Position numbers and translations under genes: made by a program
Assembly (NCBI RefSeq): GCF_030143245.1
Contig: NZ_JARJNS010000003.1
Span: 372,001-436,000, forward strand
Origin: Rhabdaerophilum sp. SD176
GTDB taxonomy: Bacteria; Pseudomonadota; Alphaproteobacteria; Rhizobiales; Beijerinckiaceae
Direction: 5' to 3'
Length of the DNA stretch: 64,000 nucleotides
The notes under the pieces: generated by a model
Database searches by the model: none
What the model was told of the DNA's origin: nothing
Seen by the model: only the letters and a program-made list of their open reading frames with translations
Part shown: positions 38,291-43,865 of the stretch, piece after piece
How the letters are laid out: each line of letters opens with the position of its first letter
Position numbering within the stretch: the first letter of the stretch is position 1

Positions 38291-39229
38291 GTGACTGCTT
38301 TGACGCATGGGCCAGATGCCCTTCGACCTGACCGTTCCTTCCAGGGCCTGATCCTGACGCTCCAGCGCTTCTGGGCGGAAAAGGGCTGCGTCATCCTGCA
38401 GCCCTATGACATGGAGGTCGGCGCGGGCACCTTCCACCCGGCCACGACGCTGCGCGCCCTCGGCCCCCGGCCGTGGAATGCGGCCTATGTCCAGCCCTCG
38501 CGCCGGCCCAAGGATGGCCGCTATGGCGAGAACCCGAACCGGTTCCAGCACTATTACCAGTTCCAGGTCATCCTGAAGCCCTCGCCGCCGAACCTGCAGG
38601 AACTCTATCTCGAAAGCCTCTATGCCATCGGCATCGACCCGGCCCTGCATGACCTGCGTTTTGTCGAGGATGACTGGGAAAGCCCCACCCTCGGCGCCTG
38701 GGGCCTCGGCTGGGAATGCTGGTGTGACGGCATGGAAGTCAGCCAGTTCACCTATTTCCAGCAGGTGGCCGGCCAGGAATGCGCCCCGGTCGCGGGCGAA
38801 CTCACCTATGGGCTCGAGCGCCTCGCCATGTATCTCCAGGGCGTCGACAATGGCTTCGAGCTGAATTTCAACGGGCTCGAAGGTGACGCCAAGGTCACCT
38901 ACGGCGATGTCTTCCGGCAGGCTGAGCAGGAATATTCCCGGCACAATTTCGAATATGCGAATACCGAGAAGCTTTTCCGCAATTTCGCCGAGGCCGAGGC
39001 CGAGTGCCGGGCCCTGCTGGCCGCGGGCGAGGGCGGCGAGGGCCAGCGCCACCGGCAGGTCCTCCCGGCCTATGACCAATGCATCAAGGCTTCCCACGCC
39101 TTCAACCTGCTCGATGCGCGCGGCGTGATCTCGGTCACCGAACGGCAGAGCTACATCCTCCGCGTGCGCGAACTCGCCAAGGCCTGCGGCGCCGCCTGGG
39201 TGAAGACCGAAGCGGGCGGTGCGGCATGA
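38291..39229 (+). CDS. glyQ: Glycyl-tRNA synthetase alpha subunit
   Basis: Catalytic class II subunit of the bacterial alpha2beta2 enzyme. The 312-residue protein begins with GTG and contains the diagnostic [24 protein letters not shown], then [14 protein letters not shown] and [20 protein letters not shown]. Its stop overlaps the next start (ATGA). Confidence 0.97.
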
Positions 39230-39702
39230 ACCGGCGGCATGTCGTCCTCGCGCTGCTGGCCGGCCTCGCGAGCGGACCGGCTTTTGCGCAAGCCAGCCCG
39301 GCGGATCCGGTTGCCGTGGTGCGGCAGGTCTATGACCCGAAGATCAAGAATGCCCAGCGGCCCTATTCCGCCCGGCTGCGGAAACTCTATGCCGCGGCAA
39401 TCCGGACCTCGCGGCGGCTGAACGAAGTCGTCTCCGGCCTCGATTTCGATCCGACGACCAATTCGCAGGATTCGGACGACAACCTCCGCGAGACGCTCAA
39501 ATTCTCGACCACAAATGCGTCGGGCGGCAAGGCTGTCGTCTCGGTGACGATGCGCATCTTCAAGGAGCAGCCCGAGCAGACGCTGGTCTTCGAACTGGTG
39601 CAGGAGAAAAACGCCTGGCGAATCGACGACATCGTCAACCCCGCGCAAACCGATGGCTGGCGCTGGTCGAAAATGCTCGAGGCCGGCGCAAAAGGCAATT
39701 GA
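39226..39702 (+). CDS. DUF3828-like exported protein
   Basis: A 158-residue protein with a signal peptide ([22 protein letters not shown]). The soluble domain resembles DUF3828: [12 protein letters not shown] at the start, [12 protein letters not shown], and [18 protein letters not shown] near the end. The start overlaps glyQ by four bases, so it is translationally coupled to an aminoacyl-tRNA synthetase despite being a predicted periplasmic protein. Function unknown. Confidence 0.75.
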
Positions 39703-39744
39703 ATGGATCGCCGGCATTTTCCGGCCTCAACCGAGGGACAACCC

Positions 39745-39987
39745 ATGACGAAACCGCATGTTGGTGGCACGGCGCCCATCCCCGTCGAGGTGGAAAAGGG
39801 CAAGGATTACTGGTGGTGTACCTGTGGCCTGTCGAAGAACCAGCCGTTCTGCGACGGCTCCCACAATGCGGAGGGCAAATTCAGCCCGATGCAGTGGACG
39901 GCCGAATCCGATCGCCGCGTCTTCTTCTGCACCTGCAAGCAGACGGGCAAATCGCCCCTCTGCGACGGCGCGCATAACAAGCTCTGA
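39745..39987 (+). CDS. CDGSH iron-sulfur protein
   Basis: An 80-residue protein with two CDGSH-type 2Fe-2S motifs: [16 protein letters not shown] and [16 protein letters not shown]. Each has three cysteines and one histidine as ligands. Such clusters are redox-active and can be transferred. The ATG at 39745 is the point where similarity starts. It lies between the DUF3828-like gene and glyS. Confidence 0.93.
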
Positions 39988-40048: not shown

Positions 40049-42439
40049 ATGCCTGATCTTCTGTTCGAACTCTTCTCCGAGGAAATTCCGGCCCGCATGC
40101 AGAAGCAGGCCTCGGAGGATCTGAAGCGCCTCGTGACCAACGCGCTGGTCGAGGCGGGCGTGACCTATGAGGGCGCGCAGGCCTATGCGACGCCGCGCCG
40201 GCTGGCTTTGCATGTCGTCGGCCTGCCGGCCCGCCAGCCGGATACGCGCGAGGAGCGCAAGGGCCCGCGCGTCGGCTCGCCCGAAGGCGCGGTGCAGGGC
40301 TTCCTGAAAGCGGCGGGCCTCGCCTCGCTTGATCAGGCGAAGATCGAGAGCGATCCGAAGAAGGGCGAATTCTACGTCGCCGTGATCGAGAAGCCGGGCC
40401 GCCCCACTTTGGACCTGCTGGCCGAGATCCTGCCGGCGACGATCCGCGCCTTCCCCTGGCCGAAGAGCATGCGCTGGGGCGCGGCCAGCACCTCCTCCGC
40501 GTCGCTGCGCTGGGTGCGACCGCTCCGCGCGATTCTCGCCACCTTCGGCGCCGAGACCGAGGAGCCCGAGATCGTCCCCTTCGCGGTGGACGGGCTCGCC
40601 GCCGGCAACATCACCTATGGCCACCGTTTTCTGGCGCCGGCGGAAATCCGCGTGAAGCGCTTCGAGGATTACGCGGCGAAGCTCGAGGCGGCGAAGGTCG
40701 TGCTCGATCCCGCCCGCCGCAAGGAGATCATCCGGCAGGATGCCCGCAACCTCGCTTTCGCGCAGGGGCTTGAGGTTGTCGAGGATGAGGGCCTGCTCGA
40801 TGAGGTGGCGGGGCTGGTCGAATGGCCCGTCGTGCTGATGGGCCGCTTCGAGGACGCCTTCCTCGACGTGCCGGGCGAGGTCATCCGCGCCACGATCCGC
40901 GCCAACCAGAAATGCTTCGTCCTGCGCGGCCCCGATGGCCGGCTCGCCAGCCGTTTCCTGCTGGTCTCGAATATCGAGGCGAAGGATGGCGGCGCCACCA
41001 TCATCGCCGGCAATGAGCGCGTCATCCGCGCCCGCCTCTCCGATGCCAAGTTTTTCTGGGAGACCGACAAGAAGGTCTGGCGCGAGGATACGGGCTTCAC
41101 CCGGCTGGAGCGCTTCAAGAACGTCACCTTCCACGAGAAGCTCGGCAGCCAGTGGGATCGCATCGAGCGCATCCGCGCGCTGGCAAAGGAACTCTGCGCC
41201 GTCACCGGCGCTGACCTCGAGAAGGTCGATCTCGCCGCCCGCATCTGCAAGCTCGACCTGCAGACCGAGGTTGTGGGCGAATTCCCGGAAGTGCAGGGCC
41301 TGATGGGCCGGATCTATGCCGGGCAGATCGGGCTCGACCCCTCGGTCGCCGCCGCCTGCGAGGAGCATTACAAGCCGGTCGGCCCCGGCGATTCCGTGCC
41401 GAAAGACCCGGTTTCCACTACCGTCGCGCTGGCGGACAAGCTCGATACGCTGGTCGGGTTCTGGGCGATCGACGAAAAGCCAACGGGCAGCAAGGACCCC
41501 TATGCGCTCAGGCGAGCGGCGCTGGGGGTTATTCGGCTGCTGGTGGAGAATGGGGTGAAGGTGGGCGTCACCAACTTGGTTTCTTGGACGCATCCCAGAA
41601 TCTATCGTCGCGCAGACTTTGTTCTCCGATATGTAAAAAAAGATCAAGATGACTTATTTGATGTCCCTTCTTGGCACATGGATATTGGCCCAAGGTACGA
41701 TGAAGAAGGCAATGAATACTATTATTTTGATGATGTGAAATACGCATCGAATGAAGATGTCTATATATATAAGGACCATCTGATTGGCGATGACGATCTG
41801 TTTTCTTTCCGCCTGCAGATCCTGAAAGACCCCAACGGAAATGGAATGGATCGTAGGGCAGAAATTGCGGCTAGTTGCCAAAGGTTCTTGTCTTTAGAGA
41901 AAGTCGCTTCCGACCTCCTCTCCTTCTTCCATGACCGCCTGAAAGTCATGCTCCGCGACCAGGGCGCACGGCATGACCTCGTCGATGCCGTGCTTGGCAA
42001 TGGCGAGGCCAATGACGACCTCCTCCTCGTCACCCGCCGCGTGAACGCCCTCGGCCACTTCCTCGAAACCGAGGATGGCACGTCGCTGCTCGCCGGCTTC
42101 AAGCGCGCGGCGAATATCCTCCGCGCCGAGGAGAAGAAGGATGGCGAGGGCGCCTTCGAGGCGGCCGCCGACCCCGCACTCTGCCGCGAACCGAGCGAGA
42201 AGGCCCTGCTCGAGGCGCTCTCGAAAGCCGGCGAGGCGGCGGGCATCGCGCTCGGCAAGGCCGATTTCGAGGCGGCGATGCGCGCCATGGCGGCGCTGCG
42301 CGGCCCGGTCGATGCCTTTTTCGAGGCGGTCCTCGTCAATGCCGAGGATCCGGCCATCCGCCGCAACCGCCTTGCCTTGCTCGCCACGCTCCGCCGCGTG
42401 ACGCGGCAGGTCGCGGATTTCAGCCGCATCGCGGGGTAG
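40049..42439 (+). CDS. glyS: Glycyl-tRNA synthetase beta subunit with an unusual insertion
   Basis: The beta subunit binds tRNA(Gly) and supports the alpha subunit. Typical blocks are [18 protein letters not shown] at the start, [17 protein letters not shown], the HD-like [29 protein letters not shown], and the C-terminal [27 protein letters not shown]. The length of 796 residues is clearly above the usual 690-750. The excess lies at residues 503-621, encoded by AT-rich DNA (41555-41911) unlike the rest of the gene. The reading frame is intact across it. Confidence 0.94.
41575..41900 (+). other. AT-rich in-frame insertion within glyS
   Basis: By direct count, positions 41581-41880 have 127 G/C of 300 (42%), while the surrounding coding sequence is clearly GC-rich. 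Codons rare elsewhere here (TTA, ATA, many AAT/GAT/TAT) cluster in it. The encoded segment is acidic and aromatic (for example [11 protein letters not shown] and EDVYIYKDH) and I do not recognise it. Near its ends are the similar strings CCAACTTGGTTTCTTG (41571-41586) and CCAAAGGTTCTTG (41878-41890), a possible but weak direct repeat. Confidence 0.75.
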
Positions 42440-42584: not shown

Positions 42585-43865
42585 ATGAATGCCACCGCTT
42601 CCCGCGCGCTTGCGCCGGGCCTGATCATCCTTGCCGGCTGCGCCTGTTCGATGCTCACCTTCGGGCCGCGTGCCACGATGGGCTTCTTCCAGCAGCCGAT
42701 CATCTCCACCCATGGCTGGGGCCGCGATGTCTTCGCGATGGCCCTCGCCATCCAGAACCTGCTCTGGGGCGTCGGCCAGCCCTTCATGGGCGCCATCGCC
42801 GATCGCTTCGGCACCCTGCGCGTACTCTGGGTCGGCGCCAGCCTCTATGCCGCCGGCCTCGCGCTGATGACCGTGGCGGGCGACCCGCTGACGCTGAACC
42901 TCACCGCCGGTGTGCTCATCGGATTCGGCCTCGCCGGCTCGTCCTTCAACCTCGTCCTCGCCGCCTTCGGCAAGCTGCTGCCGCCGGAAAAGCGCTCGAT
43001 GGCCTTCGGCGCCGGCACGGCCGCCGGCTCCTTCGGCCAGTTCCTGTTCTCGCCGCTTGGCGTGGCGCTGATCCGCGATTACGGCTGGCAGAATGCGCTG
43101 CTGATCTTCGCCGGCCTGACCATGCTGGTCCTGCCGCTGGCGCTCGCCATCGCCACACCGCCCCAGAAGCAGGCGGCTGCCAATGCCGCGCCAAGCGCCG
43201 ACAACCAGTCGGTCAAGCAGGCGCTCAACCAGGCCTTCCGGCACCGCTCCTATGTGCTGCTGGTGCTCGGTTTCTTCACCTGCGGCTTCCAGCTTGCCTT
43301 CATCACGGTGCATCTTCCGTCCTATTTCAAGGATATCGGCCTGCCGCCGGAAGTGGGCGGCTGGACGCTGGCGCTGGTCGGCATCTTCAACATTGTCGGC
43401 TCGCTTTCGGCTGGCTGGCTCGGCAACCGCATGCCCAAGCGATGGATCCTCGCCGCGATCTATTTCGCCCGTTCGGTGGTGACGATCGGGCTGCTGCTCT
43501 CGATCCCCTTCGTCGCGCAGCCGGTCAGCGTTTTCGGCATCGTGACAACGGTCGGGGTGCTCTCGGCGCTGACTTTCGGCGCCTTCACGGGGCTGCTCTG
43601 GCTCTCCACCGTGCCGCCAACGGCCGCCCTCGTCTCGATCATGTTCGGGCCGCGCTACATGGCGATGCTCTACGGCTTTGCTTTCTTCTCGCACCAGGTC
43701 GGCGCCTTCCTCGGCGTTTGGCTGGGCGGCCTGCTCTTCGAGCGCACCGGCAGCTATGACGTGGTCTGGTGGCTTTCCGTCGGGCTCGGCGTGGCTTCGG
43801 CCATCATCAACCTGCCGATCATCGAGCGCGCCGCGCCGGGCCGCTGGCAGCCCCAACCGGCCTAG
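42585..43865 (+). CDS. Major facilitator superfamily transporter
   Basis: A 426-residue inner-membrane protein with about twelve hydrophobic helices. A typical MFS loop is present (GAIADRFGTLRVLWVGA). The cytoplasmic linker in the middle is charged (QKQAAANAAPSADNQSVKQAL). The substrate cannot be read from sequence; the general pattern is that of the oxalate/formate or monocarboxylate transporter-like groups. Its end overlaps the convergent LysR gene by four bases. Confidence 0.88.
   Translation: MNATASRALAPGLIILAGCACSMLTFGPRATMGFFQQPIISTHGWGRDVFAMALAIQNLLWGVGQPFMGAIADRFGTLRVLWVGASLYAAGLALMTVAGDPLTLNLTAGVLIGFGLAGSSFNLVLAAFGKLLPPEKRSMAFGAGTAAGSFGQFLFSPLGVALIRDYGWQNALLIFAGLTMLVLPLALAIATPPQKQAAANAAPSADNQSVKQALNQAFRHRSYVLLVLGFFTCGFQLAFITVHLPSYFKDIGLPPEVGGWTLALVGIFNIVGSLSAGWLGNRMPKRWILAAIYFARSVVTIGLLLSIPFVAQPVSVFGIVTTVGVLSALTFGAFTGLLWLSTVPPTAALVSIMFGPRYMAMLYGFAFFSHQVGAFLGVWLGGLLFERTGSYDVVWWLSVGLGVASAIINLPIIERAAPGRWQPQPA

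Follow-up and report, generated by a model that had tools for sequence, protein, structure and literature searches.

A probable swappable accessory-domain slot in the glycyl-tRNA synthetase beta subunit of alphaproteobacteria

The analyzed window is a stretch of 64,000 nucleotides (nt) from Rhabdaerophilum sp. SD176 (NCBI RefSeq assembly GCF_030143245.1, contig NZ_JARJNS010000003.1, positions 372,001 to 436,000, forward strand). It carries glyS, the gene for the beta subunit of glycyl-tRNA synthetase (GlyRS), and inside this gene lies an AT-rich segment. Sequence comparisons among relatives indicate that the segment very probably occupies a slot for swappable accessory domains in the alphaproteobacterial GlyRS beta subunit. 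The features at the slot are given below in positions of the window.

40049-42439, plus strand: glyS, GlyRS beta subunit, 796 amino acids (aa), with TIGR00211, with Pfam tRNA_synt_2f and DALR_1, and with Foldseek matches to solved GlyRS structures
41558-41911, plus strand: putative hypervariable module, the current slot occupant, approximately residues 504-621, low in guanine plus cytosine (GC) and without a match in congeners
41498-41548, plus strand: helix before the slot, equivalent of helix H19 of Escherichia coli, residues 484-500, helical in the AlphaFold model and holding R488 and R489
41912-41959, plus strand: first 16 residues past the slot (622-637), with F626 and R630 invariant

The glyS product scored 754.6 bits against TIGR00211 (cut-off 300 bits) and 605.9 bits against Pfam tRNA_synt_2f, and is clearly the beta subunit of a bacterial (alpha-beta)2 GlyRS, an essential enzyme. 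One glyS match with one insert was found in the window genome (G000, 99.3% complete), and a search of this genome for an additional, alpha-2-type GlyRS gave only a 20-bit match (cut-off 243 bits). The original prediction, made from the DNA letters, described a GlyS of 796 residues with an intact frame through the segment, and the open reading frame at 40049-42439 confirmed it: 41555-41911 is translated, in frame and stop-free, to residues 503-621. The reported AT-richness was also reproduced, with GC contents of 43.4% over 41555-41911 and 42.3% over 41581-41880 against 67.8% in the remaining glyS. When GC was computed in 300-nt intervals across the 64 kb, the mean was 65.8% (standard deviation [SD] 3.9) and the minimum 41.0% at 41597, and all intervals below 48% fell in this single dip. 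By codon position, GC was 0.53/0.32/0.43 in the insert and 0.70/0.49/0.83 in the rest of glyS; the second position remains the GC-poorest, as it does in genuine coding sequence. Protein and DNA searches with the insert returned only glyS in its own genome, where it is therefore single-copy.

The length excess that had been predicted for this part of the protein proved real. In a block-to-block alignment, E. coli GlyS (7yse) has approximately 14 residues (504-517) where the window GlyS has 106. The slot falls within the HD domain (residues 341-540 according to an excerpt of PMC8464048), between the H19 equivalent and the next helix. R488, R489, F626, and R630 were invariant in 105 aligned sequences, and alignment to 7yse equated R488/R489 with E. 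coli Arg481/Arg482 and R630 with Arg531. According to an excerpt of PMC9908026, Arg481 and Arg482 contact G71 and the acceptor-stem or U73 backbone, and Arg531 touches the acceptor-stem backbone. The AlphaFold predicted local distance difference test (pLDDT) values were 39-74 at residues 511-610 and above 90 in most core blocks; low values are expected for an insert whose sequence has no relatives in the alignment.

Turnover at the slot was seen in four sister species (G011, G012, G013, and G015). Their GlyS cores were 90-93% identical to that of the window at the aa level, and fourfold degenerate sites were 78-84% identical over the first 502 residues (70-92% by segment). Each sister carried its own insert, none related to that of the window (z from -1.4 to 3.1 in a shuffle test, in which insert homology was called at z > 7). 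The genes flanking glyS were collinear among the window and the sisters, and two of them were used as controls.

38291-39229, plus strand: glyQ, alpha subunit (named from sequence), a control without a variable segment, 97-99% aa identity in G011, G012, G013, and G015
42585-43865, plus strand: transporter gene downstream of glyS (presumably of the MFS type), a collinear control, 96-99% aa identity in the same four genomes

In 20-codon blocks, identity to the sisters was mostly 82-100%, fell to 65-77% in the block immediately preceding the slot, and was restored right past it, except in G013. Over 14 pairs with unrelated inserts, the block preceding the slot was 55-80% identical in 12 pairs and 88% in the other two. 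The block that follows the slot was 82-97% identical in 13 of them, G013 being the exception. Among pairs with at least 90% core identity and both inserts of at least 30 aa, homologous inserts were found in only 4 of 29. Unrelated inserts at 96% core identity were found in isolates as well, namely Methylobacterium J-048 and M. pseudosasicola (L138/L144) and two Ochrobactrum (L095/L100), and further named isolate pairs (L071/L109 and L107/L135) likewise had unrelated inserts. As judged from these comparisons, replacement at the slot is faster than silent change in glyS. Between glyQ and glyS, at 39226-39987, two small genes were noted, the first of which, with what we take to be a signal-like start, is unusually diverged in G011 (68% aa); the other presumably has a CDGSH-like iron-sulfur motif.

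The slot was then surveyed across 209 distinct GlyS proteins. Most of them came from Hyphomicrobiales and Rhodobacterales (the latter assigned from names). They included the proteins of 50 out of 60 genomes with a GlyS match (G006, G018, G022, G039, G043, G044, G045, G047, G050, and G054 were left out) and, from a further search, 60 hand-chosen rows and 22 automatic loci. Duplicates (L067 = L006, L068 = L023, and L156 = L082) were removed before counting. Slot length ranged from 4 to 165 residues and was at least 30 in 126 proteins, the remaining 83 having linkers of less than 30 aa; its SD was 30.7 residues, and no other point came close, the second-ranking one having an SD of 8.2. The 126 long inserts fell into 11 clusters and 74 singletons with no kin detected in the set. 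Their GC was lower than that of the own gene in 112, and the composition was protein-like in 123, against 498 of 5008 off-frame control peptides, in a test partly driven by base composition. Short and long states occurred side by side in one genus (code f20g40: an 8-residue linker in five species, 55-82 residues in four), and 2 of 16 extracted congeners (L007 and L013) had linkers of less than 30 residues. Parsimony on a FastTree core tree gave 106 insert-state changes, a number that adds little, since 74 unique states set a floor of 85; scored as short or long, the slot gave 49 changes, and clusters A, B, and C gave 13, 5, and 5, respectively. Another 28 class-wide loci (L247-L274) were only viewed and were kept unclustered outside the 209; eight of them hold at least 50 residues and the others 4-29. 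Three genomes of the window's order (G017, G469, and G517; 98-100% complete) gave no GlyS beta match, although G548, which shares its genus with G017, does have one. In these three, an alpha-2 GlyRS might have taken the place of the alpha-beta enzyme.

The window insert itself had no match in protein searches of the 16 other congeners, 384 other genomes of the class, and 326 other genomes of the order (the samples overlap). The same segment was thus not present in most relatives, as it would be in an old lineage-specific domain, and the congeners do not share one insert clade-wide in the manner of a conserved signature indel. Against the 125 other long inserts, its best E-value was 0.2 (L009). 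Three loci (L009, L147, and L148), through which P0001 aligned in one piece, were considered as relatives of the window insert and rejected, the insert E-values being at least 0.2 and their genomes having no P0002 match.

Selection on inserts was estimated as dN/dS, computed from dN and dS in 13 pairs, 10 with long and three with short inserts (17-23 aa). Usable dS was obtained for six long-insert pairs, which gave 0.03, 0.13, 0.20, 0.24, 0.33, and 0.48 (L028/L030), dS being saturated in the other four; two of the short-insert pairs gave 0.06 and 0.07. The ratios show retained inserts to be mostly under apparent purifying selection. Families of retained inserts were also recognized. Cluster B comprised 12 Rhodobacterales rows and one Mesorhizobium bin, with approximately 29-58% insert identity at approximately 70-79% core identity within Rhodobacterales; an AlphaFold model of a cluster B fragment was all helical, with a pLDDT of 64 at best. 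Cluster C was found in Aminobacter, Phyllobacterium, Ochrobactrum, and Bartonella, as well as in three species identified only by the code f16g364; a search of 297 whole genomes with it gave two matches, both at glyS. In another pair, L084 (Rhizobium) and L174, the inserts were 63% and the N-terminal cores 73% identical.

One clear case of a shared module with locally raised identity was found. In G013, what follows the insert is foreign too: residues 622-680 are only 56% identical to the window, after which identity returns to 98-100%. The insert of G013 is shared with contig C121 of the metagenome bin G011 (148/150 nt), and, including four codons before and the first 44 after the insert, the two agree at 290/294 nt. 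At fourfold sites, their identity was 0.97 over residues 622-680 but 0.79, 0.64, and 0.54 in the three genes that follow. High local and low downstream identity indicates that the insert, together with a short stretch beside it, was transferred between the two lineages or acquired by each of them from a common donor. Bin G011 has two glyS contigs with different inserts, C20 (L232, with a cluster A insert) and C121 (L233), possibly representing a population polymorphism or two co-binned organisms. Both contigs end inside glyS. Differences between strains may have interrupted the assembly at this place, in which case a contig that stops within glyS could be a sign of polymorphic inserts in metagenomes. 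The end of glyS (residues 681-796, 42089-42436) had a fourfold identity of 0.85-0.90 among the sisters, against 0.53-0.84 in adjacent genes, which may reflect either stronger selection on codons or recombination that passed through glyS.

These observations change part of the original prediction, in which foreign DNA had been captured in frame at a tolerant point. The segment is indeed in frame, AT-rich, and at a tolerant point of an essential-type gene, and it appears recently acquired; the capture as a one-off event did not stand, because relatives hold different segments at the same point and at least one insert has moved between glyS genes. The short repeats suggested as junctions (41571-41586 and 41878-41890) were not supported: the best flank match was no better than in shuffles (p 0.77), and the two strings, picked by eye, gave p 0.03 after the fact and look like chance.

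At one point of the HD domain, some alphaproteobacteria have a short linker and others a small additional segment, and we propose that the window segment is one allele of a swappable accessory domain. Conserved glyS flanks would allow inserts to be swapped from a large allele pool, and homologous recombination through these flanks is the likely route of exchange. A possible driver of the turnover, though less likely than not, is conflict with a GlyRS-binding agent, which would fit the combination of unrelated replacement and purifying selection on the residents. Such an agent, for example an antibiotic, a protein of a phage, or a toxin of a competitor, would bind or attack GlyRS near the slot, a new insert might block it or act as a decoy, and rare inserts would be favored for this reason. 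The whole reading, a hypervariable slot of recombining modules under diversifying selection, is given a probability of roughly 0.55. A further reading, GlyRS as an unrecognized battleground in which a polymorphic, horizontally exchanged domain is under negative frequency-dependent selection and every strain would show a different surface to a phage, toxin, or antibiotic directed at the bacterial-type GlyRS, is doubtful.

Several points weigh against this proposal. Linkers of less than 30 aa in 83 proteins mean that the insert is dispensable for charging. The low GC of the window insert could reflect foreign origin or merely weak codon selection. One short-insert pair (L151/L153) had a dN/dS of 0.60, and four of the five closest pairs had a higher dN in the insert than in the core, as relaxed constraint would also give. 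Of 21 Rhodobacterales rows, 12 have kept cluster B, which means that rapid turnover does not hold everywhere. Cluster A, with the widest spread, aligned weakly (9-19% identity to the first member; L010, L014, and L148 are doubtful members, and L148 was excluded from alignment A1). Its profile, run on 386 genomes of the class including at least five of the window's order, gave five weak matches at about chance level (E 0.002-0.007), four of them away from glyS and the fifth (G344) unplaced; the wide spread of this cluster is tentative. The sample is non-random, following closeness to the window and the author's choice of rows, and each species is represented by a single genome in the collections, so that standing polymorphism rests on bin G011. 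Finally, no partner, toxin, or phage was found in the following searches. The window insert had no match in Pfam (up to E 1), NCBIfam, PHROGs, or PADLOC, and 91 of the 126 long inserts, when scanned, gave isolated weak matches (best 0.0079 in Pfam, 0.011 in PHROGs, and 0.0016 in PADLOC). Phage and plasmid records contained no insert match, and no confirmed viral-contig relative was found for GlyS, cluster B, or cluster C. One viral-contig match (L241; 46% over 40 residues, among 34 pattern hits) was rejected as chance after the 401 surrounding bases had been read.

Repeat-like peptides were observed at several points of GlyS. Residue ~654 is a second variable point, where Gly/Pro-rich peptides (SPSPLAGEGG...PSPQGGGG), which resemble what we take to be translated palindromic repeats landed in frame, occur in at least 14 of the 209 proteins (among the matches listed: L025, L027, L035, L051, L083, L096, L104, L112, L176-L179, L181, and L192). 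At least three similar peptides lie near residue 295 (L016, L023, and L051). In the main slot, a peptide such as VIPGLVPGIH...RDKPGHDG, presumably also a palindromic repeat, replaces the domain in at least four of the 209 (L026, L116, L214, and L013).

Of the other explanations, the one that survives best, though unlikely, is a tolerant loop, which extends the original prediction: at a surface point of the protein, DNA of foreign or repeat origin would enter in frame and later drop out, with no effect either way. It agrees with the short linkers, the repeat-like slot peptides, and the AT-richness of the inserts. It does not agree with dN/dS below 0.5 in all six measurable long-insert pairs, with protein-like composition well above the off-frame controls, with the persistence of families B and C across genera, or with an intact insert shared as a unit by two lineages (G013 and C121 of G011).

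Lineage-specific tuning of GlyRS (tRNA-Gly recognition, regulation, or partner binding) without any conflict, with inserts turning over as the tuned function has to change, is improbable. In its favor, the elements on both sides of the slot are those that in E. coli touch the acceptor stem; the tRNA-Gly of sister species is nevertheless unlikely to differ enough to need unrelated inserts, and the two congeners with short linkers manage without a long insert.

Still less weight is given to divergence in situ from a single ancestral insert. Family B behaves in this way in Rhodobacterales, whereas in the sisters fourfold identity is about 80% and no insert similarity is detectable, and the slot boundaries are abrupt in the 14 unrelated-insert pairs.

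A selfish palindromic element or an intein in frame is very improbable. Repeat-like peptides do stand in frame in relatives' glyS, chiefly near residue 654; the window insert has neither further genome copies, as a palindromic element would, nor a junction repeat. Inteins have conserved splice-junction residues and splicing blocks; insert ends vary among the relatives by eye, and there was no Pfam match.

An assembly or binning artefact, to which the many metagenome bins and the two glyS contigs of G011 might point, can practically be dismissed, as the same pattern is seen in the named isolates (L138/L144, L095/L100, L071/L109, and L107/L135), insert frames are open in the extracted genomes, and the sisters' neighborhood is collinear.

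If the proposed hypervariable slot is real, its significance lies in the kind of gene that carries it. Housekeeping synthetases are usually treated as slow and clock-like, and a swapping slot suggests a strong selective agent acting on GlyRS. The enzyme has been proposed as an antibiotic target (in an excerpt of PMC9908026). Trees or typing based on whole glyS may mix vertical and exchanged sequence.

A full-text literature search, with subscription journals mostly outside its coverage, returned no report of such a glyS slot. No spare module or flank copies were found in G000, as a silent-cassette system would have. Among the closest known systems are the target-recognition domains of Type I restriction HsdS, where recombination across conserved flanks swaps dissimilar variable modules within a single gene; HsdS serves as an accessory protein for DNA specificity, whereas the glyS slot sits in an essential synthetase and is not known to have a specificity. 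Displacement of polymorphic C-termini in Rhs also combines a conserved core with an exchanged variable module. Unlike in Rhs, the glyS module is internal, the core must stay functional, and no toxin or immunity gene was recognized alongside. The palindromic elements of Rickettsia are in-frame insertions tolerated by essential proteins as well; they are repeats copied into many genes, whereas the window insert is single-copy and the inserts of relatives are mostly unrelated. Among synthetases, Ins3 of human GlyRS is likewise an accessory domain on the synthetase core near tRNA-binding parts (in an excerpt of PMC8464048). Insertion domains of synthetases are otherwise stable within a lineage, whereas the glyS insert differs between sister species.
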